From: a virus
Virus record (IMG/VR): IMGVR_UViG_3300048583_000179
Coordinates: 1-63,447 of that record
Length of the DNA stretch: 63,447 nucleotides
Strand: one strand, 5' to 3'
In this document: piece by piece, positions 11,729-38,739 of the stretch
How the letters are laid out: each line of letters begins with the position of its first letter
Numbering within the stretch: position 1 is the stretch's first letter
Made by a program: the position numbers and the translations under genes
The notes under the pieces: generated by a model
The model's input: the letters and a program-made list of their open reading frames with translations, nothing else
What the model was told of the DNA's origin: nothing
Databases searched by the model: none

Positions 11729-11807
11729 CCTATTGGCTATTGCCCCTATATAGGGTTACTATAACCGATCAAAATGTTTTCTAAAAAATTCGGAATGTGC
11801 CAATAGG
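11729..11807. repeat. Palindromic control element, copy 1
   Basis: Contains CCCTATATAGGG (11744-11755, perfect palindrome), GGTTA-CTA-TAACC (11754-11766), then an A/T-rich tract, all bracketed by inverted CCTATTGGC (11729-11737) and GCCAATAGG (11799-11807). A 30-base core (11745-11774) is identical to 38675-38704. A possible rightward promoter TTGGCT-18-TACTAT (11733-11762) overlaps the dyad. Candidate origin or operator. Confidence 0.7.
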
Positions 11808-11943
11808 GGTAATAGGGTAGAGGGGTAACTGGGAGTACTGTAAAGGGTTACGATGCGTATTGGAGATAGGTACAGTGATAATGCTCTACCGATAATGGGG
11901 TAATAACACTGAAGGACCGCGAGCGGGATCAGGGTTCGTAGTG

Positions 11944-11972
11944 TTGTTATATCAGTGTCTAGAACGTATATT
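11944..11972 (+). promoter_or_regulatory. Rightward promoter TTGTTA-17-TATATT
   Basis: -35 at 11944-11949, -10 at 11967-11972, ideal 17-bp spacer. It leaves a leader of about 73 nt before ATG 12052, which has GAGGTAACA upstream. Confidence 0.75.
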
Positions 11973-12051
11973 AGGTCGCAGTTATCGGGACGGCCCGGGC
12001 ATCGCCGCGAGGTGAAGACGACCTTGACCTTGCACACACGTAGAGGTAACA

Positions 12052-12468
12052 ATGCGTGAGCATGCCATTTTGGCACGGTATGCCAAGCAGGCAGCCGACC
12101 TGCCAATCCTGTTGCACCGGATAGAGAACCGAGTTCACAAGGGAACACCCGACTACCTCTGGACTTCTCAGGGGTTCACAGCGTTCCTTGAAATGAAGAG
12201 CTACGATACGGGTCACTGGGTGTCACCCGAGCAGGCGATCTTCATGAGAAAGTGGACTGAAGCAGGAGGGCATGCCGGAGTATTGGCAAGCGGGAGAAGT
12301 CTGGAGTGGGACTACTACCCTGCCTTGGCCGACCACAGTTGGGTAAAGAAGATCCAAGATCGCAAAATCGCTCCAGCCTTCAGCTTTCCGGTCTTCAACT
12401 ACTCGGCTCTTCTCCAGATTATCGCTCTTCACCGTGAGCTCGTTCCTACAATCTCTGGGTCTCCCTAA
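12052..12468 (+). CDS. VRR-NUC-like PD-(D/E)XK nuclease, 138 aa
   Basis: The core reads ENRVHKGTPDYLW...FLEMKS, matching the GxPD...ExK active-site layout of VRR-NUC/Holliday-resolvase-like nucleases, with an upstream helix (ILARYAKQAADLPILLHRI) and a following Q..F-W helix. Such phage proteins cut branched DNA or act with a SNF2 helicase during replication and packaging. It stands alone on the plus strand behind a strong promoter and copy 1 of the repeated element; the SNF2 helicase sits behind copy 2. Confidence 0.75.
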   Translation: MREHAILARYAKQAADLPILLHRIENRVHKGTPDYLWTSQGFTAFLEMKSYDTGHWVSPEQAIFMRKWTEAGGHAGVLASGRSLEWDYYPALADHSWVKKIQDRKIAPAFSFPVFNYSALLQIIALHRELVPTISGSP

Positions 12469-12584
12469 TCAGGTCTCCCCAATCAACTCCGAGAAGACGA
12501 CTCCAAGACGCGTAACCGCGTTCCAAATCTGGATTTCTCGTAGTACAGGTTGGGGAAGAATTGAACTCGCCTAGGGGAATGAAA

Positions 12585-12604
12585 CAGGGGGCCGAAGCCC
12601 CCTG
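12585..12604. terminator. Bidirectional terminator hairpin
   Basis: CAGGGGGC-CGAA-GCCCCCTG, 8-bp stem with a CGAA tetraloop, between the convergent genes at 12052-12468 and 12625-13023. The rest of 12469-12624 shows no gene. Confidence 0.65.
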
Positions 12605-12624
12605 CGTCATCCACCCCTTTGTCC

Positions 12625-13023
12625 TCAGGCCGGAGTGGCAGCCTCCACCGCCTTGGCCTTCGCGGCAGCCGCCGCCTCGCGCCGCTCCGCGAGGATGGCC
12701 GCGCAGCCGGGGCACCACGCCTCAGCCGCCTCGTGGCCCGGGATCGCCCCGCCCGGCGCGTAGGCCGCGTCCTTGGCCTCCTTCCGGCTGTTGAAGTGGG
12801 CGACAGTGCCGTGCGCCTCGCAGATGTTGACGAACGTGGTGCCCGGCGCGATGGGGCGGTAGCTGTTGATGCGAACGCCCGTGCTGCGGTTGACGCGCGA
12901 CCGGAACCTGTTGTGCGAGCCGCACGCCTCGGGGTCGGTGAGGACCCGCTCGGCGGGCGCGACGGTGGTCACCGGGGTCTCGGTGGTGGTTTCCGTCGCG
13001 GTGGTCTTCTGCTTCTTCGACAT
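12625..13023 (-). CDS. Zinc-binding-like protein with disordered N-terminus, 132 aa (paralogue of 16294 gene)
   Basis: The first 30 residues are Thr/Glu-rich and probably disordered. The core (STGVRINSYRPIAPG, TFVNICEAHG, RKEAKDAAYAPGG, AEAWCPGCAAIL) matches the 155-aa protein encoded at 16294-16761 in order and spacing, including C-x2-HG and WC-x-GCA. These Cys/His residues suggest a zinc site. Function unknown. Confidence 0.75.
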   Translation of the reverse strand: MSKKQKTTATETTTETPVTTVAPAERVLTDPEACGSHNRFRSRVNRSTGVRINSYRPIAPGTTFVNICEAHGTVAHFNSRKEAKDAAYAPGGAIPGHEAAEAWCPGCAAILAERREAAAAAKAKAVEAATPA

Positions 13024-13078
13024 AGTGTACCCCCCCTGTTAGTGTGAGCCGCCCAGCGTCGTGCTGTAGCGTACACCA

Positions 13079-13107
13079 ATAATACTTCAACGCCACGTCG
13101 GACGCAA
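13079..13107 (-). promoter_or_regulatory. Promoter TTGCGT-17-TATTAT
   Basis: -35 at 13102-13107, -10 at 13079-13084 (minus strand), then a weak CAGC/GCTG stem and CTAACAGGGGGGGTACACT before ATG 13023. Confidence 0.65.
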
Positions 13108-13386
13108 TACCCGTTGAGGTCTTGTTACAGTTTGCCCCGGACTAAGTCTGCCCTCCACTTCTAGCAATCTCCGCGGGTGCGTGTTCTTATAATCGCTGCG
13201 GGCTCGCGCTCATATTGTCGCCTCTTCCTCGTGCTCTAGACTTCTCCTTCTAGATTTCTCACCCGGTGGCTCCGGCCAGCCCGAGTGCGGGGAGAACGAG
13301 ATAACGACAAGGCCCGACCGAGACCGAGAAAGGGCTAACAGGCTACGCCGAAGTGAGAAAGTGCTACGCTGATGAATACTGGGGGC
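13108..13386. other. Noncoding divergent spacer
   Basis: About 280 bp between the leftward promoter at 13079-13107 and the rightward promoter at 13387. Contains GACTTCTC (13241-13248), also found upstream of the promoters at 14277 and 14725. No gene is supported. Confidence 0.5.
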
Positions 13387-13438
13387 TGGCGTGACGAATG
13401 GGTGGGGGCTATATTGGGGGGTGCGCACCAACGCGCAC
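13387..13438 (+). promoter_or_regulatory. Leader module K: TGGCGT-17-TATATT plus 5' hairpin
   Basis: -35 at 13387-13392, -10 at 13410-13415. Five bases later comes a stem GTGCGC/GCGCAC (13421-13426 with 13433-13438), loop ACCAAC, then CTAACAGGGGGTAGGT and ATG 13459. CTGGCGTGACGA and GCTATATTG are shared, at identical spacing, with the promoter of the 43032 gene. Confidence 0.75.
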
Positions 13439-13458
13439 CACACTAACAGGGGGTAGGT

Positions 13459-13824
13459 ATGTACGTGCCAACCTTGCAAAACAACGCCGTGCCGTGGCAG
13501 GTGCAGGTAGTGGCCATGGTGCCCAACAGCACCCCCGTTGCCCTACTGGGCAACTTGCAGCATGCCATGTATGCTGCCGCTGCCCCGTGGCACGGTAGCA
13601 TGGTGGCCAGTGTGGGCAACGCCACGGGGGAAAATGGGTGGTTGGAAGTTGCGTTTACCGCCCACATGCACCCCGCCTACATGCTGGTGGACAATGCGCA
13701 AGCGGTTACCCCCCGGCTAGTGCAACAGGGCGGGGAAATACTGGCGCAGTGGGTGGGGCACCTACATGCCATGCTGCCGGGGGCCGTGCTGTACCAAGCC
13801 AAGTTGGAAAACCCCAACTACTAG
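13459..13824 (+). CDS. Hypothetical protein, 121 aa
   Basis: Starts MYVPTLQNNAVPWQVQVVAM. Ala/Met/His-rich with unusual G-rich codon choice compared with the virion genes. No family recognised. First of a two-gene unit, followed by a hairpin. Confidence 0.65.
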   Translation: MYVPTLQNNAVPWQVQVVAMVPNSTPVALLGNLQHAMYAAAAPWHGSMVASVGNATGENGWLEVAFTAHMHPAYMLVDNAQAVTPRLVQQGGEILAQWVGHLHAMLPGAVLYQAKLENPNY

Positions 13825-13832
13825 GGGTAACC

Positions 13833-13854
13833 GGGTGGGGGGTAACCCCCACCC
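13833..13854 (+). terminator. Attenuator-like hairpin
   Basis: GGGTGGGGG-GTAA-CCCCCACCC, 9-bp stem, between 13824 and ATG 13872. The next gene has no promoter of its own, so partial read-through is likely. Confidence 0.55.
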
Positions 13855-13871
13855 ACCATACAGGGGGTACA

Positions 13872-14171
13872 ATGGAAGAAGCAACAGGGTGGTTGGTCTC
13901 AGTTACCATGCCGTACAGCCTAACTGAAGACAGGCACGTACAGGCTCTTCAAACCCTCACCAATTTCACTTCGCACATGCCAGACTTCTCCGAGGGAGAC
14001 GGGGGCACAAGCAGCGAAGAAGGGCGGGGCATGGTGTACGTGGAAGAAGTGTACAGCACCAGTCTCGGCCACGCCATGCAGTACCTCCAGCTCGCCCTGT
14101 CTCTGGGGGCGTACTGCGGGGATGTGGTGCCAGCCCGTATCGACGAAGAAGGGATACCCGTGGAGATGTAG
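13872..14171 (+). CDS. Hypothetical protein, 99 aa
   Basis: ATG 13872 follows ACAGGGGGTACA. Acidic, with a VSVTMPYSLTEDRHVQALQT start suggesting a ferredoxin-like strand/helix. No family recognised. Confidence 0.6.
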   Translation: MEEATGWLVSVTMPYSLTEDRHVQALQTLTNFTSHMPDFSEGDGGTSSEEGRGMVYVEEVYSTSLGHAMQYLQLALSLGAYCGDVVPARIDEEGIPVEM

Positions 14172-14173
14172 CG

Positions 14174-14203
14174 GGGGCGGGGCGAGAGCTCTCGCCCCGC
14201 CCC
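14174..14203 (+). terminator. 30-bp perfect palindrome
   Basis: Two 15-base complementary arms with no spacer, centred on GAGAGCTCTC, directly after the stop at 14171. A strong terminator hairpin. Confidence 0.7.
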
Positions 14204-14276
14204 TTAGTAGGTGGGTACGAGAAAGGGCGATTGTTCTCTGGAGATGACCACTCCCCATCAAGACTTCTCAAGCCAC

Positions 14277-14305
14277 TTGCGTGGCGACTCAACGGGTGCT
14301 AGCTT
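14277..14305 (+). promoter_or_regulatory. Promoter TTGCGT-17-TAGCTT
   Basis: -35 at 14277-14282, -10 at 14300-14305. Preceded by GACTTCTC at 14262-14269, an element also upstream of the 14725 promoter. Confidence 0.7.
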
Positions 14306-14349
14306 ACAGTGTAGGGTAGTACAGCGATTCCAACCTAATAGGGGGTACC

Positions 14350-20917: not shown

Positions 20918-22737
20918 CTGCACCGTTTTTCAATTACAAGCAGCCGGGCGAAGTCAGCATCGCCATGGCGCAAACGCTGATCGGCGAGCATCTCTGGGAC
21001 GGGGCCAAGGTCAACGCGAAGTTCATGGAAGGCGACCATTGGCAAGAAGGGGTAGGCTGGATTGGCCCCATGCCAAACGCGACAGAGGAAGGGTACGCGG
21101 CCACCAAGGCGTTGATTGAAAAAGGGTTCATTAGCAAGAATGCCATCAAGGAAGTAGTTGATCGACACGTCAACGGCCTTCTAGGGTTGCCCCCCGAGTG
21201 GGGGTTTACTCCCATCAAGGCGTTGAAGGAAAACGAAGAGATCAGCCCCGCAGACCAAGCCCTCATTGACGAGGCCGAAGCGGCAGTCACTCAGTGGTGG
21301 GACAAGCGAGACGCCCACAATCTAATCAAGGACGTTGCGACCAAAGCCCTTTGGGCAGGTCGTGGACTGAGCCGCGTCTATGTTCCGAGTGGCCTGTTGG
21401 TTGACGTTGTGGTGGCTGCGCCGGACGGGCAAGCGACTACGATTCGGGGTGTGGCCGTCCCAAATGGGGATGTGAATAAGGCACTGGAGCTCATTTGGAT
21501 TGAGTCGCCTAAGCCCGATGTGAGCACCGTGTACGAGGTCTTCGAAACAAAAGAAGAAATCGGCATGGTGATTACCGCCCCAAGCGCGACCAGCACGGTC
21601 AACACGACGCTGTCCACGCAACAGCTAGAGCTCACCTACCTTGAAAAGCAAGCCATCGCTGACAAGGTTATGACGGTGCTCGCGCTGAAGCGGCTGGAGC
21701 AACAGGCCGAGAGCATCGTAAAGATGGACTTGGGCGGGCGCATCACGATGTTTGAAATGAAGCGCGAGCCGCTCATTACCGAGCAGGTTCAGTCCATGCA
21801 GCGGGCCATCAACCTCGCCATCAGCGTGGTGCCCCGCACGATCGTCACTGGAGGCTTCTTGGAGCGCATCATTCTCAACGGGCAAATGCCCGGCGAGTGG
21901 GTTGAGGATGCCAAGACCAAGGAGAAGCGGTTTGTGCCCGGAAAGCTCAGCATGGGCGCGGGCACGACGAATTTTATTTCGGGCGTTGAGCACGAGGACC
22001 AGAGCACTGGCACCACGAAGCTTGCCGACCCCGAAGTGGTTATTCGTGAGCCGACCGACCCGTCGTTCGCCGTCAAGGGTGAGCGGGCACTGTACCGCGA
22101 TCTGCTTGAGGAAGTGGACCAAGTTCACATCCTGATGAGTGCGGATGCGGTGGCAAGCGGTGTAGCCCGCGAACAAGCTCGCGTTGACTTTATGCTGAGC
22201 CTGAACAAGACTCGGCCGCAAGTTGAGGTCATGGGCCGCTGGATGCTTGAAACCGTGTTGGCCATGGCCGAGGTCTTCGCTGGCACGCCGGGCAAATACA
22301 CGAGCAAGCTCAAGGCATACTTCCGCTGCAAGCCGGACTTCGGGCCGATTAGTAGCGACGAGCGCAACCAGACGGTGCAGGAAGTTGAAAAAGGAATGAA
22401 GAGCCGTGAGCGCGGTATGAACGAGCTCGGGGTTGACGACGTTGACGCTGAGCTTGCAAAGATCAACAGCCAACCGGATGCCCAAGTTGACTTGGTCAAG
22501 CGACAGGGAGAAGCACTCAAGGCGCTCGTTGACGCTACCGTGCCCTTGGAAATCGCAATGGAGCTCGTTGGGTTTGATCCGGAAGTGGTTCAGAAGGCTG
22601 CCGCTAAGGCAGAAGAAGCCAAGCAAAAGGAGCTAGATGCTCAGGTTGAGATGGCCGAAGCGCAAGGGGCCATTGATACTGATAAGGCAGTGGCAACGGC
22701 CAAGGCGAAGCCCGCCGTTCCGCCTCCTGCTATGTAG
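20914..22737 (+). CDS. Portal protein, 607 aa
   Basis: The position after TerL and the size fit. The N-terminus (HLWDGAKVNAKFMEGDHW, then NAIKEVVDRHVNGLLGLPPE) is typical of phage portal/SPP1-gp6-like proteins, with a long central region and a charged C-terminal helix rich in Ala, Glu and Lys. It forms the dodecameric ring at one capsid vertex through which DNA passes. Start overlaps the previous stop (ATGA). Confidence 0.85.
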   Translation: MTAPFFNYKQPGEVSIAMAQTLIGEHLWDGAKVNAKFMEGDHWQEGVGWIGPMPNATEEGYAATKALIEKGFISKNAIKEVVDRHVNGLLGLPPEWGFTPIKALKENEEISPADQALIDEAEAAVTQWWDKRDAHNLIKDVATKALWAGRGLSRVYVPSGLLVDVVVAAPDGQATTIRGVAVPNGDVNKALELIWIESPKPDVSTVYEVFETKEEIGMVITAPSATSTVNTTLSTQQLELTYLEKQAIADKVMTVLALKRLEQQAESIVKMDLGGRITMFEMKREPLITEQVQSMQRAINLAISVVPRTIVTGGFLERIILNGQMPGEWVEDAKTKEKRFVPGKLSMGAGTTNFISGVEHEDQSTGTTKLADPEVVIREPTDPSFAVKGERALYRDLLEEVDQVHILMSADAVASGVAREQARVDFMLSLNKTRPQVEVMGRWMLETVLAMAEVFAGTPGKYTSKLKAYFRCKPDFGPISSDERNQTVQEVEKGMKSRERGMNELGVDDVDAELAKINSQPDAQVDLVKRQGEALKALVDATVPLEIAMELVGFDPEVVQKAAAKAEEAKQKELDAQVEMAEAQGAIDTDKAVATAKAKPAVPPPAM

Positions 22738-22740
22738 GTC

Positions 22741-22769
22741 TTGCGCATTATCCGCAGTCCTGTTATAGT
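22741..22769 (+). promoter_or_regulatory. Promoter TTGCGC-17-TATAGT
   Basis: -35 at 22741-22746, -10 at 22764-22769, 17-bp spacer, in the 58-bp gap between portal and scaffold. It would boost capsid-gene transcription. Confidence 0.75.
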
Positions 22770-22795
22770 TTCGTCTACTTCTTGGGAGAACGTGT

Positions 22796-23560: not shown

Positions 23561-23563
23561 TCC

Positions 23564-24187: not shown

Positions 24188-24210
24188 GTCGGCCGGGGAG
24201 ACACTGAGCA

Positions 24211-25305: not shown

Positions 25306-25381
25306 CACAACGGAGCGGCTGTTGGGCGAGGTAACACATCACCTCGCCCAACGGGCCTCCACACTCTTTTCGGAGCTACCC

Positions 25382-25612: not shown

Positions 25613-25615
25613 CGC

Positions 25616-26860: not shown

Positions 26861-26861
26861 C

Positions 26862-27456: not shown

Positions 27457-27498
27457 GCCAAGGGCTTGGACTTCTAACAACAAGCAGCAGGAGCAGCC

Positions 27499-27912: not shown

Positions 27913-27921
27913 GGTGGGCAT

Positions 27922-27947
27922 TGGCCGGGGCACTTCCGCCCCGGCCA
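27922..27947 (+). terminator. Terminator after the tail tube gene
   Basis: TGGCCGGGGC-ACTTCC-GCCCCGGCCA, 10-bp stem. Probably gives more tube mRNA than tape-measure mRNA. Confidence 0.65.
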
Positions 27948-27975
27948 TCTCCCCATGTAGCTTGAGGCGAATACC

Positions 27976-28398
27976 ATGTCAGAAGTTGAGCTGAAGGTAG
28001 AAAACGGTGGGCTTCTGGACAAGGAGTCCATTCTCAAGAACACCCGGCTTCGCGTGGAGAAGGTGGATGTGCCGGAGTGGGGCGGCTCGGTGCTCGTCAA
28101 GGAAATGACGGCTTCAGAGCGCGACCGCTTTGAGGCCAGCCTCCTGAAGAACACTTGGGACGGCAAGGGCAAGGAAATGTCCACTGAGGATATTCGTGCC
28201 AAACTGTGCGCCCTCGTGATTGTCAACGCCAAGCACGAACCGATCTTCCGTGAGGCAGACATTCCGGCACTGGGCTCCATGAGCGCGGGTGCGCTTGACC
28301 GGGTGTATGCCGTGGCCATGCGCCTCAGCGGGCTGAGCAAGGGTGACGTGGAGGAGCTGGCAAAAAACTCTCAGAGCGACCGTGGCGACGGGCAATAA
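27976..28398 (+). CDS. Tail assembly chaperone, unshifted form, 140 aa
   Basis: Lies between tube and tape measure, the G/T chaperone place. VPEWGGSVLVKEMTASERDRF and the helical C-terminus match short tail chaperones. It contains the slippery heptamer near its end. It would bind the tape measure and prevent misfolding. Confidence 0.8.
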   Translation: MSEVELKVENGGLLDKESILKNTRLRVEKVDVPEWGGSVLVKEMTASERDRFEASLLKNTWDGKGKEMSTEDIRAKLCALVIVNAKHEPIFREADIPALGSMSAGALDRVYAVAMRLSGLSKGDVEELAKNSQSDRGDGQ

Positions 28399-28580
28399 TC
28401 CAGCTCGCGGTCGAAAAGTTCCATGTTCCACCAAGGGTCATGCTGGAGGAGTGGGACCTCACTACCACCGAAGTGCTAGAAATCTTGGCGGAGTACAACC
28501 TTCAGGCGAAAGAGCAGTACGAGCGTCAAAAGCGCACTGACGATCTAAACAAAGGCATCGGTCGCCGACGAAGGAAGTAA
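27976..28580 (+). CDS. Tail assembly chaperone, -1 frameshift fusion, 201 aa
   Basis: Zero-frame codons 1-131 end at AAC 28366-28368 inside A-AAA-AAC (28362-28368). Slipping back one base gives a second frame (CTC TCA GAG ... ) open to TAA at 28578-28580, adding 70 residues with an acidic and then basic C-terminus ending GIGRRRRK. This is the G-GT pattern known from lambda and many siphoviruses. Confidence 0.8.
28362..28368 (+). promoter_or_regulatory. -1 ribosomal frameshift site AAAAAAC
   Basis: The heptamer is in the right phase (GCA AAA AAC) for X XXY YYZ slippage. The shifted frame has no start of its own at the 5' end and stops one base before the tape measure ATG. Confidence 0.8.
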
Positions 28581-31500
28581 ATGGCCACGATCGCACAGCT
28601 AATTGTTGAAGTCGGTGCAGACACGGCAAGCCTCCGCCAAGGGCTTGATAGAAGCGTCGGCTACCTGAAAGAGTTCGCTCGTAAGAGCGGCAGGGTGGCC
28701 GTCGCTTCAGAGATTTTTGGTGGCTTCAGCCGCAAAGACCCCTTCGGCCCTGAACGTAAAGGCGCGGCAGTTGCCCTAGAGGAGCTTCGTAAAGACTTCG
28801 CGAAAACGCAAACGCGCATTCGCGAGGACTTCGCTAGAAACCTGATCAACAAAGAGCAATTTCTAGCCAAGGGTAAGGAAGCGGCCCAGAAGTTTAATCA
28901 GGGCATCCTTACCGAACTGGACACGCTCAAGGGAAAGAGTGGCCCTGCCTTTGACCGCCTTCGGGCGGGGTGGGTAAGCCAGTTCAAGGACATCGGCGAT
29001 CGTGCCGGTGCTGCCATGAAGGCTAACCTGCTGAAGCAAGCCACGTCGCAGGTAGAGCTCGGCCAGAATCTGACGCGCAATGTGAGCTTGCCCATTGCTG
29101 CCGCACTCACTGGCGCTGGAATCGTGGCAAGCGACTTTGAGTTTAAAATGCTCAAGGTCGGTGCGACTCTTGACGCCACGCAAAAAGATTTTGAAAAGCT
29201 AGAGGACGCTGCCCGAGACCAGACCAACGTCATTGAGTTTGGTAACAATGCTGTTCAGTCCGCCGAAGCCCTACAGATCTTGGCACAGGCGGGCTATGAC
29301 GTTGAACAGGCCATCGGCATTCTTCCAACAGCCCTGAAGCTGGCCACCGTTGAACAGGTGGACCTCACTACCGCCACAAACATCGCCACGGGTGCCATCG
29401 CGGCGTTTAAGTTTGAGGCACAGGACGCGGGCTTCGTAGCCGACGTTCTGGCAAAGGCGAGCATTGACAGCAAGGCCACACTGACCGACCTTGGTACGTC
29501 CATGACGTATGTCGGCGGCGTTGCAAACAACCTCGGCCTTAACTTTATTGAAACAACGGCAGCCCTAGAAGCACTGGCTGAACAAAACTTCCGGGGTACC
29601 CTTGCAGGTACCGCGCTTCGCGGCATTCTAACGAAGCTTGCCTCGCCAACAAAGAAGCAAGCTTCGGTACTGAAAGAGCTAGGCATTCAAACCAAGGATG
29701 CCGAAGGCCGACTGCTCTCGTTCAGTAAGATCGTTAAGCAGTTTGAGGATGCAAGCGTCAAGTTCGGTAAATACCGCACCGCTGCGAAAGAGCTCGAGCT
29801 GTTCGCGCAGCGAGCAGGTCCAGGTTTCGCCGCCATCATTGCCGTCGGCAGCGAGAACCTTAAGAAGTGGGAAAACGATCTGGCGAGTAGCGCCGGAACC
29901 CTAGAAAGCATCAACAAGAAGCAGATTTCAGGGGCCACAGGCGCGTTCCTGAAGCTGAAGGCGTCCATCATTGAGCTTGCCATTTCCATTGGCGAGTCTG
30001 GGCTGCTGGACGCTATTCGTGCTGTGGCAAACGCCTTTTCTACCTTCGTAAAGTTTGTATCAAAGCTTCCGGAGCCGCTCAAGCAGATCCTACTTGCCCT
30101 GACCGTTATCGCAGCCGCCGCTGGACCTGTCATCACAGCATTTGGTCTACTCGGCCTTGCTTCATTGACGCTTGGGGCGGGCATGGTTGCACTGGGCATC
30201 AGCCTAGGAACCGTGGCTAGCTTCTTCTTGGGTGGGGCGGCGCTGTTCGCTGGAATTGTCGCGCTGATTGCCCTGTTCAAGGACCAAAAGAAGGAAACCG
30301 AAAGCCTTGACGAAGCTACCAAGCGTTACCAGAACACCCTGAAGGGGTTGGATGGGGAGCAGCTTCGGTACGAGGCCACGCTTCAGCAGACCTACCTCAA
30401 CAACGTAACTCGTGACCGTGAGCGGCTTACCGCTAGCCTAAAGAGCCTTGAAACTGAGCGAGATCGCCTCAAGGTAATTGAACGAGCCAACCGCACGCTT
30501 GCCATTGGCAGTGAGAAAGACCTCGTTGGCCAGAAGGCTGCTGCCGACCTTCGCAAGAACGCTGAGGCCATTAAGGCGACCAAGGCGGCGATTGATGCGG
30601 CGTCCAAGGCTCAGGACACGTTCCGTGCCCGAACCTTTGCGGCTACTACTCAATGGGCACAGTATAACAGAATTCGGGCTTTGTTCAACCCGAATCTGCC
30701 TGATGGAAATGAACCTGATCTTGCCCCGTCCAATAAGAAGCTGGACAGGCTGAAGCAAGAGCAGACAGCCCTAGAGGCAATTCTCGCGTTTACGAAGGAA
30801 GCAATTGAGAAGTTCAACACCCTGCAAAGCACCGGGGTGATCGATATCGGCCTACGGCTTCAGGGCCAAGTTGCCATTGAAGAGCAGCTTAAGACACTTA
30901 AGGGGCTGCTTGAGGGTCAGCTTACGCTTGCCCTTACTCTTGAGCTGACCGGAACCGGGCCAGGCAGTGCCTTGGGCACGGCGAATGAAATCCAACGGGT
31001 TATCGCCGAGGTTCAAAAGGCTCTTGACGAAGCCGCTAAGAAAAAGATCAACCTGAACTTTGACAAGAGCTTTGCCGTCATTGATGTGCCGACGGTTAAT
31101 CTTCAGGTTGAGCAAATTCGAAAGATTGGTGACGAGTACAAGGCGGTCTACGACAAGCTCAAGTTCGCCACGGCAGCGGGCGACAAGGTAGGCATTGAGC
31201 TTGCCAATGCTCAGCTAAAGGCGGTTGAGGAGCAGGTCAAAGCCCTCGTCGGCGTAATCAATGCGCGGCTGCTGCTAAATAAGACGCTTACCGAGGCTGA
31301 GAAGCTTGCGCTTCAGCGCGAAATCATTCAGGTGCTGGAGGACGCGGGCATCAAGACCGACGAGGTTAAGGAAAAGGCAGCGGGATGGCTTGGCGTGCTC
31401 GCCAGTGTGCGTGTTGCCCTGCGCGGCATTCGCAATGCCGGGCGCGGGCTGGAAGTCATCAGTGAAACGGTAGATAACGCGATCAGCTCAATTGAAACGA

Positions 31501-32903
31501 TGCTGCTTGCTGTGAAGCAGCTCAACAAGGCGTTTGACACCGCGAACAACGGGCTGGGTAAGATTGACTACGCTGCCGCTGCCAGTAGCCTTATCGGTGC
31601 GATTGGTGCGGCGGTAGGCTTCTTCTCCAGTATTCTAAACGGCGGCGAGTCTGAAACCGACAAGCTCATTCGCGAGAACAACGAGCGGCTTGCCGAACTG
31701 CGCGATGGTCTTGACAGGTTCCAAGTCAACCTCGGTAGCACCGCTGACGCTGTCAAGGCAATTGCTAACCTTGAGCAGAACGGCTTTGATACCGCCATCG
31801 GTAACAGGCTGTTCAAACTTGACGTAGAAAAGAACAGGGCATCGCTAGACGCAGTGCTTGCGCCCTTCGATCTAACGATTTCCAAGCTGAACAAGATTGC
31901 CGAAGAGTACGGCATTACCCTGATTAAGGATGGCAAGATTCAGGGTAAAGCGTTTGAGCAGCTTAAGGAAGCGGCGGAGCTCGCAGCCCTTGAGCTGTCC
32001 AAGTTCAGCAGTGATCTACAGGGCATTGTCACCCTGCAGGAAGTCCGTAACAAGCTTCAGGGCATTCCGGACACCGCTGAGCAGCAGGTAAAGGATCAGC
32101 TTGCTATTCTTGCGCAGGTTGCCCCTGACCTGTACGCTGCCCTGAACATTCCGGCGTTTGAAACCATTACGCCGGAAGCTGCCGCCGCCATCAAGGCGTC
32201 CCTGCTCAACCTTGTCAACCTAATTGACGCCGGGCTCATTGACTACTCGGACTTTGGCGACTTCGCCAGTGCCGATGAGTTCCTACAGTACGTCGGCAAG
32301 ATGGCCGACAGCCTCGGTACCCTGACTGATGCGACTGACGCAGCGGTGGCTAGCCTGTTGAACGTGCCGACCGGGTACAAGATTGAGCGGGCGCGCTTCG
32401 CTGCGCAAATTGCCAAGGATATCGAAACCATTGGCGACGGCATTATCGTGCGCCCGCCCGTGACTACGGTTGATGACACGGCGGGTGGCCGGGGTGTCTT
32501 TGACGGCTTGGACAAGCTGGAAGACATCTTTCGCAAGATCTACGAGCAGAATGTGGCGGGTGCCCCGGCTCAACAGGCGGCACTACTGGACACCATCGCC
32601 ACGAGCACCCCGACCGACCTGCTTGACCAACTGACGCGGGTGCAGTCGGCCTTCACACTGGGTCTGCAGGATAGTACGTCGGCCATTGTGTCGGCCCTGC
32701 AAGGGCTGATTAGCGGTGGAACCGATAGCAGCGGCTTGACCGGAGCTGGGGGTGGCGGTAACCTAGTTCTCAATGTTACCGTAAATGGCGACAGCGCCAA
32801 TGCCAAGCAGACAGGCACTCAAATCGCTGACGTCGTGCTCAGCACCCTGCGTAGAAAGAGCGTCACCCGCTTTGGTACCTCCAGCAAGTGGGGAACCCTG
32901 TAA
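28581..32903 (+). CDS. Tape measure protein, 1440 aa
   Basis: The longest virion gene, right after the chaperones. An N-terminal coiled region, a phage-tape-measure core (TKKQASVLKELGIQTKDAEG; LASPT...FSKIVKQFED), a hydrophobic stretch around residues 500-560 and long Ala/Leu/Glu helices. It sets tail length, roughly 200 nm at 1.5 angstrom per residue, and is ejected with DNA. ATG 28581 directly follows the frameshift stop. Confidence 0.95.
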   Translation: MATIAQLIVEVGADTASLRQGLDRSVGYLKEFARKSGRVAVASEIFGGFSRKDPFGPERKGAAVALEELRKDFAKTQTRIREDFARNLINKEQFLAKGKEAAQKFNQGILTELDTLKGKSGPAFDRLRAGWVSQFKDIGDRAGAAMKANLLKQATSQVELGQNLTRNVSLPIAAALTGAGIVASDFEFKMLKVGATLDATQKDFEKLEDAARDQTNVIEFGNNAVQSAEALQILAQAGYDVEQAIGILPTALKLATVEQVDLTTATNIATGAIAAFKFEAQDAGFVADVLAKASIDSKATLTDLGTSMTYVGGVANNLGLNFIETTAALEALAEQNFRGTLAGTALRGILTKLASPTKKQASVLKELGIQTKDAEGRLLSFSKIVKQFEDASVKFGKYRTAAKELELFAQRAGPGFAAIIAVGSENLKKWENDLASSAGTLESINKKQISGATGAFLKLKASIIELAISIGESGLLDAIRAVANAFSTFVKFVSKLPEPLKQILLALTVIAAAAGPVITAFGLLGLASLTLGAGMVALGISLGTVASFFLGGAALFAGIVALIALFKDQKKETESLDEATKRYQNTLKGLDGEQLRYEATLQQTYLNNVTRDRERLTASLKSLETERDRLKVIERANRTLAIGSEKDLVGQKAAADLRKNAEAIKATKAAIDAASKAQDTFRARTFAATTQWAQYNRIRALFNPNLPDGNEPDLAPSNKKLDRLKQEQTALEAILAFTKEAIEKFNTLQSTGVIDIGLRLQGQVAIEEQLKTLKGLLEGQLTLALTLELTGTGPGSALGTANEIQRVIAEVQKALDEAAKKKINLNFDKSFAVIDVPTVNLQVEQIRKIGDEYKAVYDKLKFATAAGDKVGIELANAQLKAVEEQVKALVGVINARLLLNKTLTEAEKLALQREIIQVLEDAGIKTDEVKEKAAGWLGVLASVRVALRGIRNAGRGLEVISETVDNAISSIETMLLAVKQLNKAFDTANNGLGKIDYAAAASSLIGAIGAAVGFFSSILNGGESETDKLIRENNERLAELRDGLDRFQVNLGSTADAVKAIANLEQNGFDTAIGNRLFKLDVEKNRASLDAVLAPFDLTISKLNKIAEEYGITLIKDGKIQGKAFEQLKEAAELAALELSKFSSDLQGIVTLQEVRNKLQGIPDTAEQQVKDQLAILAQVAPDLYAALNIPAFETITPEAAAAIKASLLNLVNLIDAGLIDYSDFGDFASADEFLQYVGKMADSLGTLTDATDAAVASLLNVPTGYKIERARFAAQIAKDIETIGDGIIVRPPVTTVDDTAGGRGVFDGLDKLEDIFRKIYEQNVAGAPAQQAALLDTIATSTPTDLLDQLTRVQSAFTLGLQDSTSAIVSALQGLISGGTDSSGLTGAGGGGNLVLNVTVNGDSANAKQTGTQIADVVLSTLRRKSVTRFGTSSKWGTL

Positions 32904-33248
32904 ATGGCTTTTCTCGTCGTAGGTGCCGTAACGGTTCCTGTTCAGCAAGAGGGCGCTACTCAGCGCCCCGATGCGGTGGTAGGTTCGGTACGACGCACCT
33001 TTGGCAACCGCCTCGTGTCAAGTCTGCGAACCCCCAAGCGCGAGTGGGAGTTTGACACGAGGCCGCTGACAGCCGCTGAAGAAACTACGCTCAAGGCAGC
33101 CATCGGCCTCGGTACAACGGTAACCGTTACGGGCGACGGTGTGGGCGGAGGCAGCGTCAGCGCCAAGGTCTTCATTGATGCCGTTGAATACGTGCCTAAG
33201 GGCACCGGGTTTGAGCGGGTGCTGACGCTTGTCGTGCAGGAAGTCTAA
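32904..33248 (+). CDS. Tail protein, distal-tail-like, 114 aa
   Basis: Small beta protein (VRRTFGNRLVSSLRTPKREW, EFDTRPLTAAEETTLKAAIG) located right after the tape measure. It starts one base after the tape-measure stop. Probably joins tube and tip; family not certain. Confidence 0.65.
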   Translation: MAFLVVGAVTVPVQQEGATQRPDAVVGSVRRTFGNRLVSSLRTPKREWEFDTRPLTAAEETTLKAAIGLGTTVTVTGDGVGGGSVSAKVFIDAVEYVPKGTGFERVLTLVVQEV

Positions 33249-34639
33249 TGCCGATGTACCACGGGTTCACCGACAACGATAAAGCCCTCATTCTAACAGG
33301 GAACTTTGACACTCACCTGTGGCTTAGAATCCACAGGTTCAACGGGGCAACGTGGTCGTTCATTGACGTTGAAAGCTCGGCCATCGGGTACGACCCTACG
33401 ATTTCTGCGCAACTCAGTTACGACATTGACTCTCCAGCCGGTTCGGCAACGATCATTCTCCAGTTGTTTGAGAACGGGGAGTCAATCAGCCCGCTGAACT
33501 TTGATTCACCTGTAAACACCGGGTCCGATGAGCTCTTTCGCCCCGGCAAGCGAATTGAGCTTTACGCCTGTGTGGTACCAAAGGGCAATGCGATTCCAGC
33601 AAAGACGCTCAGCCCCGTAGGCTACCCCACGATTCCGGACTATACGTGGCACCGCATGTTCGGCGGGCGCATTGACAATGTGTCAATGAGCGGTGACGAC
33701 CTTACCTTGTCGTGCCGAAGCTACGAATGGTTGCTGCTGGACAGGTTCATTGAGGACGTCACCAAGTACGGGGGTGGCGACCCTGTTGAAACGGTGATGC
33801 AAAACATCGTTACCCAGTGGCTCACTGCTGACCCGATGCCCGGTGGCACCCCCGCATTCTACAGCACTGTCGTCACCCCGACAAGCCCGCTGTGGAACAT
33901 CAACGACTACGCGCAGCAAGCACAGCCGATTATGGAAGCCTTGCGCGTACTCGCGCAGCAGATCGGTTGGGATATTCGCTACTTTGAAACGGACGGCTTG
34001 GCAGACCCAGAGCTTACGTTCTACGACCCTGACCGGGTGTCCTACACTCCCGGAGCGCTCTACGGGTACGACATTGCCATGGACTTCTACTACGAGTTCG
34101 CACCCATTGAAATCAATGGTGACGACATTCGTAACGTAATTGAAGGCCGTCTCGCTTCTGACAAGACAATCTACACGGTGAGCGATGCGGCAAGCATCGC
34201 CAAGTACGGTCGGCGGTTCATGCGGATTGTTGAAGACGCCAACAGCAACATCGACACCGCCGGTGAAATGAACGACATGTTGGACATTATCTTGTCCGAC
34301 CTTCGTGAGCCCAGAGCTACGGCTACGGTTCGCTGCCCGTTTTACCCGGTTCGGCTCAACAGCATTCTACGTGTGAATGGCGACGGGCTGGGGTACGCCG
34401 AGCTCTCTATTCAGGGCTTTGAATTCAGCATCACAGGCTATCAGCACAACTTTTCAAACGGTGAGTGCGAAACCACGATCCAGCTGCGTGCGGACGCCCC
34501 GGTGTCCGGTAGTCGCTGGTGGACGCAGCAAGAAGGCGAAGCAACCCAGTTCGTTGAAACAGTCGCGCCAACCATCGGTATCACGGCCCCGGAAGGTACC
34601 CTCTGGATCCAGTGCTCTGACTTGAGCTTCCCGCCATGA
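33248..34639 (+). CDS. Tail hub/baseplate-like protein, 463 aa
   Basis: Position after tape measure and distal tail protein, and segments such as WHRMFGGRIDNVSMSGDDL, followed by a DPRVETVM-like DPVETVMQNIV region, fit tail-associated hub proteins (gp44/gp27-type). It would form the central hub at the tail tip. Confidence 0.7.
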   Translation: MPMYHGFTDNDKALILTGNFDTHLWLRIHRFNGATWSFIDVESSAIGYDPTISAQLSYDIDSPAGSATIILQLFENGESISPLNFDSPVNTGSDELFRPGKRIELYACVVPKGNAIPAKTLSPVGYPTIPDYTWHRMFGGRIDNVSMSGDDLTLSCRSYEWLLLDRFIEDVTKYGGGDPVETVMQNIVTQWLTADPMPGGTPAFYSTVVTPTSPLWNINDYAQQAQPIMEALRVLAQQIGWDIRYFETDGLADPELTFYDPDRVSYTPGALYGYDIAMDFYYEFAPIEINGDDIRNVIEGRLASDKTIYTVSDAASIAKYGRRFMRIVEDANSNIDTAGEMNDMLDIILSDLREPRATATVRCPFYPVRLNSILRVNGDGLGYAELSIQGFEFSITGYQHNFSNGECETTIQLRADAPVSGSRWWTQQEGEATQFVETVAPTIGITAPEGTLWIQCSDLSFPP

Positions 34640-36414
34640 GTGGTGTTCTTTTCTTTGACGGTCTAACGGGCACCGTGGGCACTCGTCAAGGAGTGCCCGA
34701 GCTTTTGGAGAACTTCTCTGGTGTTTACCAGAACATCGTGTGGGGTGTTGACAACGATGGTCTTGGAGAAGGACTGGACCACATCACGTGGTATGCCCCG
34801 GACTACAACGGGGCGGGGTACATCAATCAAAACGCGGTCGCGTGGGCACCAACGGAGGTTGTGAGTCACAGGTGGTTTAGCTACAGCATGGATCTTGTAG
34901 ACCAGAGTGCCCCGGTTACGATCCGGATGCACTTCAGGTGCCACAGCCAAGGCGCGGGCAGCTTCAGCAACGGGCTTGTCGGTATTCGCGTAGGCACCAC
35001 ACTTGATGGAACTGACAACAGCCTTGGCGAAGCATTTCTAACCGCCTCTGAAGTTGAAAACGGGGTTGGCAGAACCCTGACGGTTTCGTTTACCGCCCCG
35101 GCTGATGCCGAAGCGTATGTTAGCGAAGCCTACATCATGATCGGTATCTTTGAGGTCACGGCAGGTCTAGCGCCGTTTACGATTGAAGTAGATAACGCGA
35201 TGTATGAGGCCGGACCGGGCCTTGCCGCGAACCCCTACGGCACAGGAGCCCCCGGTCCCCTTCCAACCTTTACCGACCGTCCCTACAATTACGGTAGAGT
35301 TGAATACGGTGCGTTTGGCCCCGGTGGATCCCAAGCGATTAAGATGTGGGGCTACACGCCGAATGCTGAGCACCGGCTCGACCCCGGCATTGACGCGGGC
35401 GCTGTCGGCGTTCGCTTCATTCTAGACGCGCTGCCCAATAGCGGTGATGAACGCTGTATCCTTTGGTGCGGTGATGGCCTTCAGTACACCGAGCTTCGCA
35501 TTACAAGTGCCGGTGACTACAAGCTCTACAAGTCGGGCGCGTACACAGCGCTCTTTAGCAACTACGTCGCAGGGACGACCCGCTACGTAGAGCTTTGGAG
35601 CCGCGAGTTTCTGGGCAACAGCGAATGTCTTCTTTACATTGAAGGTAGCTACGCTGGAACGCTATCACGACCCGGAACAACTGGGTCGTTCCGGGGCGGC
35701 GGCTTTGGCGACCGGTATGTGAATGATATCTACGACAACGTCGGGTGTACGTTCCAAGACTTCTATGTCAAAGACATGGTCAGTGACACGACCCTGTTGG
35801 GGCCGAATGTCAAGATGGCTCACTTTGACTTCTGTGCGGGTGCCCCCGGTGTTGATGGCTATGCGCTACCCACCTTCACTTTGACAGGTGGCAGCATTCT
35901 CGCGGTTGCTCCAGACATTACCCATTCAATGAACGGCGTAGAGGTTAGCCACGAATGGGATTCAGCTGAGACAGGTGCGTTGATTAACCTGTCCATGAAG
36001 TACTCGGGCACGCAGTCCACTGTCAAAACAAACCACTCATCCAGCGCCCCTCGGTGCTCGTACGAATACGACCCGACCATCTTTGACTGGAAGAGTAACT
36101 TTTATCCACACGAGGTTGCGCCGGGCAGCGTCGCGTGGACTGACGCTGTTCTTTCTGCCAGTACCGTTATCGTCACCGCAGGTGGAACAGGTACCCTAGT
36201 TCTACACAAGACGGGTATCCGAGTTCTATACACTGGAACGTTGACTGCCGACTACTCAAGCTGTGGCGGAGCGGTTGGGTGCGGTGATCTTCTTGTGAGG
36301 CGTAACGGCGACTGGCGGTTGCCGTCCAATGTCTACGTTAAGAAGAACCTGGACTGGCGTAACGCTGAGCACCTTTTTGTACGGGATAAGGGACAATGGT
36401 GGCAGATTTTCTAG
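34636..36414 (+). CDS. Tail tip/receptor-binding-like protein, 592 aa
   Basis: Beta-rich, with two LamG/jelly-roll-like parts (SMDLVDQSAPVTIRMHFRCH; FILDALPNSGDERCILWCG). The C-terminus has repeated basic-aromatic strands (LLVRRNGDWRLPSNVYVKKN, then DWRNAEHLFVRDKGQWWQ). Overlaps the hub gene by 4 bp. A carbohydrate-binding role is inferred. Confidence 0.65.
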   Translation: MSGVLFFDGLTGTVGTRQGVPELLENFSGVYQNIVWGVDNDGLGEGLDHITWYAPDYNGAGYINQNAVAWAPTEVVSHRWFSYSMDLVDQSAPVTIRMHFRCHSQGAGSFSNGLVGIRVGTTLDGTDNSLGEAFLTASEVENGVGRTLTVSFTAPADAEAYVSEAYIMIGIFEVTAGLAPFTIEVDNAMYEAGPGLAANPYGTGAPGPLPTFTDRPYNYGRVEYGAFGPGGSQAIKMWGYTPNAEHRLDPGIDAGAVGVRFILDALPNSGDERCILWCGDGLQYTELRITSAGDYKLYKSGAYTALFSNYVAGTTRYVELWSREFLGNSECLLYIEGSYAGTLSRPGTTGSFRGGGFGDRYVNDIYDNVGCTFQDFYVKDMVSDTTLLGPNVKMAHFDFCAGAPGVDGYALPTFTLTGGSILAVAPDITHSMNGVEVSHEWDSAETGALINLSMKYSGTQSTVKTNHSSSAPRCSYEYDPTIFDWKSNFYPHEVAPGSVAWTDAVLSASTVIVTAGGTGTLVLHKTGIRVLYTGTLTADYSSCGGAVGCGDLLVRRNGDWRLPSNVYVKKNLDWRNAEHLFVRDKGQWWQIF

Positions 36415-36416
36415 TC

Positions 36417-36445
36417 TTGCCCTGTGTCGCCCTTTCGTGTACATT
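36417..36445 (+). promoter_or_regulatory. Promoter TTGCCC-17-TACATT before lysis genes
   Basis: -35 at 36417-36422, -10 at 36440-36445. Transcription would start near 36452, which supports the GTG at 36469 as the start of the first lysis gene. Confidence 0.6.
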
Positions 36446-36468
36446 ACGGGTACTTGCCGGGAGTCTTC

Positions 36469-36951
36469 GTGTTTGATATCATCAGCGGTATCTCACACTG
36501 GTTTCAAAAGGCTTACGGCATGGCGATCGCAACCATTGTCGGTGGAGAAGTAGCGGTGTTGACCGGAATTATTTCACTTCGGCAACTACCAGATGCGGCC
36601 CACCGCATTGCCTCTATTGACGTGCTTGTTGGCCTCTTGCTCAGCACAGTGATTATCGGTGTTGGCGCATGGGGCATCAACCAGTTCACTAAGTTCAAAG
36701 ACGAAGCCACCCATCAAGCCGCCACGGATCGTGAGGCCGCGACTAAGGCTCTTACGGAAGCCAAGGCACAGTTCATGGAAGCGGTTCATGAGCTGAAGAG
36801 CAAGGTGGAGCGGGTGGATGCCGCCCTGACTGGCTTTGACGGTGACGGTGGTGTTCTTGGAGAAGTTCGGAAGCTCGGGACTCAGATAGAGATGCAGAAC
36901 AAAGAGCGGGCACAGCTTCTGGATTACATTCTTCGAGAGCGAGGCCACTGA
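36469..36951 (+). CDS. Holin-like membrane protein with coiled tail, 160 aa
   Basis: GTG 36469 has CGGGAG five bases upstream. Two hydrophobic helices (AIATIVGGEVAVLTGIISL; VLVGLLLSTVIIGVGAWGI) followed by a long charged coiled coil (DREAATKALTEAKAQFMEAV). Located directly before another holin-like gene and the endolysin. Holin or a regulator of lysis timing. Confidence 0.65.
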   Translation: MFDIISGISHWFQKAYGMAIATIVGGEVAVLTGIISLRQLPDAAHRIASIDVLVGLLLSTVIIGVGAWGINQFTKFKDEATHQAATDREAATKALTEAKAQFMEAVHELKSKVERVDAALTGFDGDGGVLGEVRKLGTQIEMQNKERAQLLDYILRERGH

Positions 36952-37193
36952 TGGCAAACGAATGGCACGAAAAGATGGGCGGGCGCAAGTTCCTCATTGC
37001 GATTCTTGGCATGGGCATGGGGTTCGCCCTTGCTCTTCTGGCGAAGCTGAGCGCTGAGTTTAGCAATGTGATCATGGTGAGCACCGCAAGCTTCATGGCG
37101 GGCAACACCATCACTACTCGTGAGGCCATTCGCCACCCGGCCACCCCGCCCGCCCCCACTGAGCCGCCCGTGGATCCAACCCATGAAGGCTAG
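36951..37193 (+). CDS. Holin-like protein, 80 aa
   Basis: Short, with two hydrophobic stretches (FLIAILGMGMGFALALLAKL and NVIMVSTASFMAGN) and a Pro/Thr-rich C-terminus. Position before the endolysin supports a holin or antiholin. Start overlaps the previous stop. Confidence 0.7.
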   Translation: MANEWHEKMGGRKFLIAILGMGMGFALALLAKLSAEFSNVIMVSTASFMAGNTITTREAIRHPATPPAPTEPPVDPTHEG

Positions 37194-37746
37194 TTACCTT
37201 TTCGGAGACCTTGCGCTCATTACCCCGTGCCCGTGGCTTGAGGGCACGGGCATCAGCACTAGGGTAGAAATGATCGTACGGGCAGCCCACGCCTGTATCG
37301 GCGTTCGTGAGAACCCACTGGGTAGCAACCGTGGCCCACAGGTTGATCGATGGCTGCGCGAGTCTGGTCTTGACGCCAGTGTCATCACCGCTGGAAACGG
37401 CTACTGGTGTGCGGCATGGGCCGGGGCGATGTGGAAGTTTGCCGGTATTCAAATGCCGGTGGGCTACTACGACTGTGATGTGCTGTGGCGATGGGCGCGT
37501 GAGACCAAGCGATTTGTAAAGAAACCCGGCCTCGGCTATATGGTTCTGTACGGAAATGCAAAGAAGCCGGACGCGAACCATGTGGGCATTGTTGTTGAAA
37601 ATGTGCAAAACCCTGTCATCACCGTGGAAGCCAATACCACGATTGAAGGCAGTGCGTTTGAACGCAACGGTACCGCTGTCGCTGTCAAGCTAATTCAACC
37701 CTCTGACCCGGTACTGGGGTACATCAGTGTTGAATCTGTGGCGTAA
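37183..37746 (+). CDS. Endolysin, CHAP/NlpC-P60-like, 187 aa
   Basis: YWCAAWAGAMWKFAG holds the catalytic Cys, and GYMVLYGNAKKPDANHVGIV the catalytic His, in the CHAP/NlpC-P60 layout. It would cut peptide bonds in peptidoglycan. No signal peptide, so it depends on holins. ATG 37183 is preferred over an upstream start inside the holin gene. Confidence 0.8.
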   Translation: MKASYLFGDLALITPCPWLEGTGISTRVEMIVRAAHACIGVRENPLGSNRGPQVDRWLRESGLDASVITAGNGYWCAAWAGAMWKFAGIQMPVGYYDCDVLWRWARETKRFVKKPGLGYMVLYGNAKKPDANHVGIVVENVQNPVITVEANTTIEGSAFERNGTAVAVKLIQPSDPVLGYISVESVA

Positions 37747-38371
37747 GTATCGCATGTGGGTGCTGCTCGGCTTTCTAATCATTGTGCTGCTCGTGCTTGT
37801 TGAATGGGGAGTGTACCTGTTCGGCGAGTACAAGAACGTCAAGAAAATCCGGCAACAGTTTGAGGAACAGAACGAAAAGCTTGAGCAGCAGACAGATGAG
37901 ATCAACCAATTGCTCAAGCACAATCAACGCGTCACAATTTACCTTGACAGCCTGAAGGGTGCGGTGCGCGTGCGCGACACTGCAATCGCGGGCCTGAAGG
38001 CTGATAAACGAGCCCTTCAAAAGCGTCTTGCCGACGCGCCCTCCGCTTTCGACAGCGTTCCCATTCTTGTGTCCATTGTTTCAAACCTTGAGAACACGGT
38101 TGTGAAACAGGACTCAACGATTCGTGACGAGCGTGCCCGCGCCGACTCGGCTGAGAGTTCCAGATACCAAGCCCTTGCCCGGCTGACTGAAGTTCGGGAC
38201 ACGCTCAACAGTGTTCGCAAAGCGAACGACGCCCTCCAGAAGCTCTGTACAAAGAAGCAACCCTTTATTCGTATTGACGGAGGGGTGGGGTTGGCCACGC
38301 TGCCCTTCAACAACTGGGAAACTGGACCCGCCATTACGCTCACAGCGCGGGTCTTTAGCTTGCGGCTGTGA
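37727..38371 (+). CDS. Rz-like inner-membrane spanin, 214 aa
   Basis: One N-terminal transmembrane helix (VLLGFLIIVLLVLVEWGVYL), then a long charged coiled coil (EEQNEKLEQQTDEINQLLKH and more) and a short C-terminal domain. Overlaps the endolysin by 20 bp. This layout matches i-spanins of phages of Gram-negative hosts. No separate o-spanin lipoprotein is seen next to it. Confidence 0.65.
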   Translation: MLNLWRKYRMWVLLGFLIIVLLVLVEWGVYLFGEYKNVKKIRQQFEEQNEKLEQQTDEINQLLKHNQRVTIYLDSLKGAVRVRDTAIAGLKADKRALQKRLADAPSAFDSVPILVSIVSNLENTVVKQDSTIRDERARADSAESSRYQALARLTEVRDTLNSVRKANDALQKLCTKKQPFIRIDGGVGLATLPFNNWETGPAITLTARVFSLRL

Positions 38372-38388
38372 ACTAGATGTGGTATATT
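38360..38388 (+). promoter_or_regulatory. Promoter TTGCGG-17-TATATT
   Basis: -35 at 38360-38365 and -10 at 38383-38388 with a 17-bp spacer. The -10 lies over the first codons of the 62-aa frame at 38377, so that start or this promoter may not be used. Confidence 0.55.
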
Positions 38389-38565
38389 GCACAGTGGGCC
38401 GGGCAGCGTCCCTGTCGCCCCGAAGACATCTTTTGGTTTGATATCAAGCGGTACTGGGTTCATGCCGTGGGGCACTACTTCATTCCATGTGTAATAGCCG
38501 GGACAACCTTCTTCGCGTTGCACTGTACGCGCCAGTGGTGGCGCAACAGGCCCGGCCAGACGTAA
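38377..38565 (+). CDS. Small membrane protein, 62 aa
   Basis: One hydrophobic segment (HYFIPCVIAGTTFFALHC) in an otherwise Trp/Arg-rich peptide. No clear ribosome site; the start overlaps a promoter. Could be a lysis accessory. Low confidence. Confidence 0.4.
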   Translation: MWYIAQWAGQRPCRPEDIFWFDIKRYWVHAVGHYFIPCVIAGTTFFALHCTRQWWRNRPGQT

Positions 38566-38579
38566 ATCCAGCGTCGCTA

Positions 38580-38614
38580 CCGACCCTCAGGGACACAAAC
38601 CCCATGGGGGTCGG
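38580..38614 (+). terminator. Terminator after the lysis genes
   Basis: CCGACCC (38580-38586) pairs with GGGTCGG (38608-38614) and is followed by GTTGTTTGG. Confidence 0.55.
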
Positions 38615-38662
38615 GTTGTTTGGTGGGGGGCAAACGGCACGCGCCAGAGGGGCATTCGGCGT

Positions 38663-38739
38663 ATTGGCCTATTGCCTATATAGGGTTACTATAACCGATC
38701 AAAAAGTTTTTTCCAAAAATGGTTCGGTAATAGGCCAAT
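38663..38739. repeat. Palindromic control element, copy 2
   Basis: The 30-base core 38675-38704 is identical to 11745-11774. It is bracketed by an inverted pair at 38663-38676 and 38726-38739 (13 of 14 bases complementary). A possible promoter TTGGCC-17-TACTAT (38664-38692) overlaps the GGTTA-CTA-TAACC dyad and points to the helicase gene. Confidence 0.7.

Follow-up and report, generated by a model that had tools for sequence, protein, structure and literature searches.

Bacteriophage SPP1 has two origins of similar organization, each combining repeats with an A/T-rich unwinding element and both bound by gp38, and oriR has been proposed as a fork-stall site that triggers concatemer replication (PMC6316719). 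For YuA-like phages, which are widely isolated on Pseudomonas aeruginosa and Bordetella, no replication origin turned up in the literature we searched, and the words promoter, noncoding and replication origin are absent from a paper on the Mesyanzhinovviridae (PMC11946847). Here, we describe a pair of short, palindromic, A/T-rich elements in the phage record IMGVR_UViG_3300048583_000179 (63,447 nt; this whole record is the window to which coordinates refer), one at the start of the gene block that contains the terminase genes and the other before the gene for an SNF2-type helicase. In the literature searched we found no description of the pair, and nobody seems to have described it. We propose, with a probability of about 0.52, that the two copies are paired replication origins, functionally like oriL and oriR of SPP1.

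Anatomy of the paired element

Both copies, about 80 bp long, lie on the same strand in the same orientation (Table 1). The first-pass annotation of this record had reported an identical 30-base core holding TATATA and GGTTA-CTA-TAACC, bracketed by inverted repeats and accompanied by an A/T-rich tract, and all of this was confirmed. The core, CCTATATAGGGTTACTATAACCGATCAAAA, holds the palindromes CCTATATAGG and GGTTACTATAACC, which have a common boundary base, and after them GATCAAAA; TATATA sits within CCTATATAGG, the GGTTA-CTA-TAACC dyad lies at 11754-11766 and 38684-38696, and the tract after the two palindromes in the element center is GATCAAAA.GTTTT. On the left of this palindromic core and A/T tract each copy has two TATTGSC-type boxes and on the right two inverted boxes, with inverted arms CCTATTGGC / GCCAATAGG set 61 nt apart in copy 1 and TATTGGCCTATT / AATAGGCCAATA set 55 nt apart in copy 2. 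Inverted short boxes around an A/T tract are the grammar of iteron origins. The order of the right-hand boxes is swapped between the copies (alpha-beta in copy 1, beta-alpha in copy 2), which suggests that the boxes themselves are maintained. An IHF-like ATCAA-N4-TT motif occurs in both copies and 18 times in the genome, and we note it as a lead only. On the minus strand, weak sigma70-like sites are found at 11758-11785 and 38688-38716, with the -10 TATAGT inside the identical core.

Chance origin of the paired element is excluded. With up to 3 mismatches allowed, the 18-base inner core occurs in the genome only in the two copies, where shuffles gave an expectation of 0.00, and the same holds for the arm pattern TATTGGC-N50-75-GCCAATA (two occurrences only, 0.00 expected); taken alone, the 13-base dyad GGTTACTATAACC would be less remarkable. 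Self-comparison of the whole genome, in which the gaps were not presupposed, returned the pair as the top non-tandem repeat (11731-11808 versus 38662-38743, 84.5% identity, E 7e-15). The 60-nt windows of the two copies also have the two lowest GC contents of the genome, 0.30 and 0.317, the next being 0.383.

That the element works as an RNA hairpin or transcription terminator is very improbable: its single strands form more stable folds than shuffled sequences do (z -2 to -4.9), but the long-range arms are accounted for by the inverted boxes, Rfam gave no match, and neither a T-run after the stem nor a terminator call is present at the elements. An intrinsic terminator, judged by a G+C-rich stem with a T-run, was rejected.

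The same layout in related phages

Pair statistics were collected for eight named pair-bearing relatives, four named pairless ones and eleven IMG/VR contigs chosen for carrying a relative of the hydroxymethyldeoxyuridine (hmdU) kinase (G-series), with some relatives analyzed as 50-kb parts of 56-62-kb genomes. The layout recurs at the SNF2 and terminase gaps, with letters that are mostly unlike between lineages. It is borne by YuA, MW2, SN1, Ab18, AIIMS-Plu-RaNi, RHph_TM26 and Pam3 and by the uncultured YuA-like contigs G003, G004 and G009, while two further genomes, SH-Ab 15497 and contig G014, have variants of it. An SNF2 gene neighbors the element also in YuA, MW2, Pam3, Ab18 and RHph_TM26, and in three of the eleven hmdU-kinase contigs (G003, G004 and G009) the pair lies exactly upstream of the SNF2 gene and the terminase small subunit (TerS) gene. 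The YuA record has two large gaps, upstream of the helicase gene gp02 and of the terminase gene gp50, and comparing one gap with the other gave a match of 57 bp (84%); the same comparison gave 140 bp (82%) in MW2, 232 bp (79%) in RHph_TM26, 310 bp (86%, inverted) in Ab18 and 389 bp (77%, inverted) in AIIMS-Plu-RaNi. The Pam3 pair measures 225 bp (92%) and that of SN1 57 bp (86%). In SH-Ab 15497 the pair is inverted at 71% identity, with one copy two genes upstream of the SNF2 gene and the other before TerS, so that identity between copies of one genome spans 71-92% and one copy is sometimes inverted. Contig G014 is broken within the repeat: the internal copy precedes the SNF2 gene and the other end precedes TerS. 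Its ends, 1-112 and 57788-57914, match the internal element at 30431-30708 (L199, L200, L201); the second copy is probably where the assembly was interrupted.

The pair ranks at or near the top of the genome-wide repeats in layout-bearing phages. Self-comparison placed it first in the window, YuA, MW2, Ab18, AIIMS-Plu-RaNi, RHph_TM26, Pam3 and SH-Ab 15497, and second in SN1, after a middle-promoter-type repeat. Ranked by A/T content in 60-nt windows, over the genome or over the available stretch, the two copies take ranks 1 and 2 in the window, YuA, MW2, SN1, Pam3, RHph_TM26, Ab18, G003, G004 and G009, and ranks 1 and 3 in AIIMS-Plu-RaNi. The elements of the relatives share one grammar, in which short inverted boxes surround an A/T array. 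A TTCGCTAGRC box is common to those of MW2 (terminase copy), Ab18, RHph_TM26 and Pam3, the rest of which mostly differs (places L097:11503-11734 and L097:37784-38015; also L092, L094 and L099), and a blastn search with the MW2 array gave 121 matching places, spread over 64 phage records.

The exact letters of the window element gave little outside it. The 30-mer core had no match in our IMG/VR search, in which the records closest to the window were perhaps outside the searched set, and the 22-mer core had none in GTDB genomes; the 18-mer core matched once, about chance level, next to a HicA-like gene of an unrelated prophage. Searches for close relatives by SNF2 or PolA alone found none, and inverted repeats taken by themselves, ahead of SNF2 in distant IMG/VR loci, gave no useful information. 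Against the relatives' elements, the best shuffle p was 0.02 among 56 comparisons, which is not significant after multiple testing. Since cross-lineage alignments are not significant, membership of the window in the group rests on position and composition, not letters; a resemblance of TAGGGTTACT in the window to TAGGTTACT in YuA is a lead only. Conservation, which the first-pass annotation had made a check on its proposal, divides: the letters are absent from the other records searched, but the paired A/T-rich inverted-box element before SNF2 and the terminase block is conserved across the group. The partnership of nuclease and helicase that it had read into the two downstream genes does not carry over, as the partner of the helicase-proximal copy in the relatives is the TerS gene, and the nuclease-like gene of the window is merely the first rightward gene past copy 1.

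Two insertions of a small mobile element resembling a miniature inverted-repeat transposable element would suit a short, palindromic sequence in two copies, but the flanks of neither copy show an evident target-site duplication, the exact sequence had no other copies in the searches made, and paired elements occupy matching places in different sequence classes. We rejected this explanation as contradicted by the positional conservation, and give it next to no credence. The structural block between the copies spans 22-31 kb across the group and 26.9 kb in the window. That the pair brackets this block, with one copy in the relatives just upstream of the terminase genes, could also mean that the copies mark the ends of the structural module for packaging, programmed fork arrest or module exchange and not for initiation, and the second SPP1 origin has been proposed as a fork-stall site too (PMC6316719). 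We regard this as distinctly improbable: two pac sites are one more than headful packaging requires, copy 1 of the window lies at a distance of ~5.6 kb from the possible TerS gene, and recombination between direct repeats spaced 27 kb apart would break a circular genome in two.

Paired origins or paired promoters

If the copies are replication origins, a phage-encoded initiator would bind to the inverted TATTGSC boxes that flank the core. The A/T-rich palindromic center would then open, acting as the unwinding element, and the loading of the PolA/primase replisome would follow, so that replication would start there. The terminase-side copy may in addition help circular replication give way to the concatemer mode on which packaging draws, a role proposed for oriR in SPP1. 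Recognition of both copies by one protein requires them to stay alike, which would explain why they match within a genome and drift between lineages; within-genome agreement at conserved positions points to a site recognized in trans by a co-evolving protein, or else to gene conversion.

Paired early promoters or operators, through which one shared phage regulator would control the helicase-led and terminase-led rightward blocks, are the main rival and rank second, as a less likely reading. Several observations speak for them. Directly adjoining the copies, the YuA record annotates promoters at 489-568 and 33014-33160 (medium activity, 1000 MU), YuA gp25 has helix-turn-helix matches, and each window copy lies ahead of the gene that opens a rightward stretch and contains a weak sigma70-like minus-strand site in its core. 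However, one copy is inverted in Ab18, AIIMS-Plu-RaNi and SH-Ab 15497 with the downstream genes in the same direction, which argues against a simple promoter; the A/T array lies outside the YuA promoter fragments, the window core showed no good plus-strand promoter, transcription from the minus-strand site in copy 2 would run into the lysis genes, and promoter-like matches are about as frequent as chance would give. A promoter is often part of a phage origin, and the two readings may therefore both hold. The first-pass annotation had left the choice at two origins or operators of a shared regulator; both survive, and the comparative evidence favors origins without settling the matter.

Several results weigh against paired origins. 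The YuA copies both adjoin annotated promoters, so that a role in transcription is possible, and a phyletic profile showed no initiator gene confined to pair-bearing phages. A/T richness is supportive, not proof, being partly expected of large intergenic gaps in a GC-rich phage, and the copies of SH-Ab 15497 are not the most A/T-rich windows of their genome. In relatives whose genes all run one way, GC skew does not turn at the copies as it would at an origin. In the window, where GC skew had been suggested as a check, the turning points near 10 kb and 40 kb follow gene direction and are unreadable as replication, which GC and AT skew together did not separate from transcription. Lastly, the pair was not found in the SNF2-bearing phages DSL-LC04, 023Pt_psg01 (50 kb), Vibrio H1 and Mallos (50 kb), nor in the SNF2-bearing contigs G001, G002, G005, G006, G007, G008 and G010, some of these pairless records being partial or perhaps fragments. 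Contig G001 (L185), the nearest relative of the window by SNF2 (38%) and itself possibly a fragment, has CCTAATACCG boxes, direct and inverted, at 22433-22513 in a gap near the SNF2 gene; a second CCTAATACCG cluster was not found in it, and the cluster is a candidate single-copy counterpart.

More tentatively than for the window itself, we suggest that YuA-like phages in general (Mesyanzhinovviridae, Pam3-like, RHph_TM26-like and the window phage) may have two co-evolving origins that bracket the structural block, with likeness within a genome kept by gene conversion or a shared initiator, wholesale change between lineages, inversion tolerated, and a terminase-side origin that would couple replication mode to packaging.

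Genomic surroundings

Copy 1 lies in a divergent noncoding gap (about 11502-12051), 235 nt upstream of the gene at 12052, and copy 2 in a second gap (38566-38817), where 75 nt separate it from the SNF2 gene (Table 1). The product of the 12052 gene has weak Holliday-junction-resolvase and endonuclease matches, weak similarity to YuA gp24 and no match in a Pfam search. Copy 1 opens the gene block that contains the terminase genes, ~5.6 kb upstream of the possible, weakly identified TerS, and small genes including the nuclease-like one fill the interval. In this spacing the window departs from its relatives, and it does so too in having the replication block past the SNF2 gene on the other strand. 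The window encodes a replication and base-modification set of the YuA/Pam3/DSL-LC04 type, and the closest named polymerases, those of DSL-LC04 and 023Pt_psg01, are only ~40% identical.

Table 1. Positions of the paired element and of genes in the window.
Feature	Position	Strand	Evidence or remark
Element copy 1, terminase-side, at start of rightward gene block	11729-11817	+	lowest-GC 60-nt window of genome
Copy 1 left iteron-like boxes	TATTGGC 11731-11737; TATTGCC 11738-11744	+	
Copy 1 right inverted boxes	GCCAATA 11799-11805; GGTAATA 11808-11814	-	
Element copy 2, helicase-side, between lysis genes and SNF2 gene	38662-38743	+	second lowest-GC 60-nt window
Copy 2 left boxes	TATTGGC 38662-38668; TATTGCC 38670-38676	+	
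Copy 2 right inverted boxes	GGTAATA 38726-38732; GCCAATA 38734-38740	-	
30-nt core CCTATATAGGGTTACTATAACCGATCAAAA, identical in both copies	11745-11774 and 38675-38704	+	
Small nuclease-like protein, first rightward gene past copy 1	12052-12468	+	phrog_2165, E 9e-9
Possible terminase small subunit	17388-18407	+	weak phrog_9231
Terminase large subunit, with possible TerS opens structural block	18675-20234	+	
SNF2-type helicase, 568 aa, first gene past copy 2	38818-40524	+	SNF2-rel_dom 1.1e-10, Helicase_C 9.9e-9
PolA	41060		
Thymidylate synthase-type hydroxymethylase	43901		
hmdU DNA kinase-type protein	45026		
AEP primase	50730		
Pam3 gp34 / gp33 / gp32 homologues	52371 / 53246 / 53806		

Thymidine hypermodification genes (hydroxymethylase and two hmdU kinase-like proteins) occupy 43901-46829, and the phage DNA is therefore probably base-modified. 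A pyrimidine dimer DNA glycosylase is encoded on the minus strand at 689-1138 (Pyr_excise, E 4.7e-24). The ends of the record, 1-127 and 63321-63447, are identical over 127 bp, which probably reflects k-mer overlap in assembling a genome that is circular or permuted; the YuA-like phage Lydia has an assembly-end repeat of the same length, 127 bp (PMC11946847).

Other repeats lie nearby. A 36-nt repeat, comprising a TGGCC..GGCCA hairpin and, on the minus strand, TGAGCTACCTTACCAT, occurs three times (8661-8696, 10011-10046 and 11532-11567), in gaps at or slightly upstream of minus-strand gene starts, and is likely a repeated early leader or promoter. The divergent gap also holds, at 11580-11626, a perfect inverted repeat, GCGCAAGGGGTACGGAAA / TTTCCGTACCCCTTGCGC, of 18 bp around an 11-nt loop; the right half of the repeat matches 37186-37222 in part. 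Upstream of the terminase genes, a strong palindrome cluster with GCCACATGTGGC repeats and 13- to 17-bp hairpins (14174-14203 and 16064-16246) is a possible packaging or regulatory site.

Significance and comparison with known systems

A co-evolving element pair recovered from sequence alone supplies two precise candidate sites per genome, and the way in which it was recognized, as the highest-ranking distant repeat, with its copies in the two most A/T-rich windows, offers a recipe for origin candidates in other phages. The window and its relatives may represent a second case of the two-origin layout of SPP1, in an unrelated replisome of PolA and AEP primase.

The likeness to SPP1 lies in organization: oriL and oriR, as the two copies in the window, are two distant loci of similar build, with repeated boxes and an A/T-rich element. 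The differences are that oriL of SPP1 lies inside the initiator gene 38, with direct repeats, the host replisome and proven activity, whereas the window has inverted box pairs at predicted origins. Also close are the A/T arrays of the Yuavirus/Vojvodinavirus phages YuA, MW2 and SN1, not reported as a pair in the papers searched, which like the window have two copies with inverted short boxes in the most A/T-rich windows, bracketing the structural block, and which lie before the SNF2 helicase and before the terminase. Unlike the window, these phages have a different sequence, a larger element with ATCT or AAT microrepeats and annotated promoters alongside, and their terminase-side copy adjoins TerS, whereas copy 1 of the window is separated from its possible TerS by ~5.6 kb. 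Pam3 and RHph_TM26 share with the window the same two positions, the direct orientation and an A/T tract between inverted boxes, and the window has genes of the Pam3 gp32/gp33/gp34 type. Their element, however, is ~230 bp long, carries the TTCGCTAGRC box that the window copies lack and has no significant sequence similarity to the window element.

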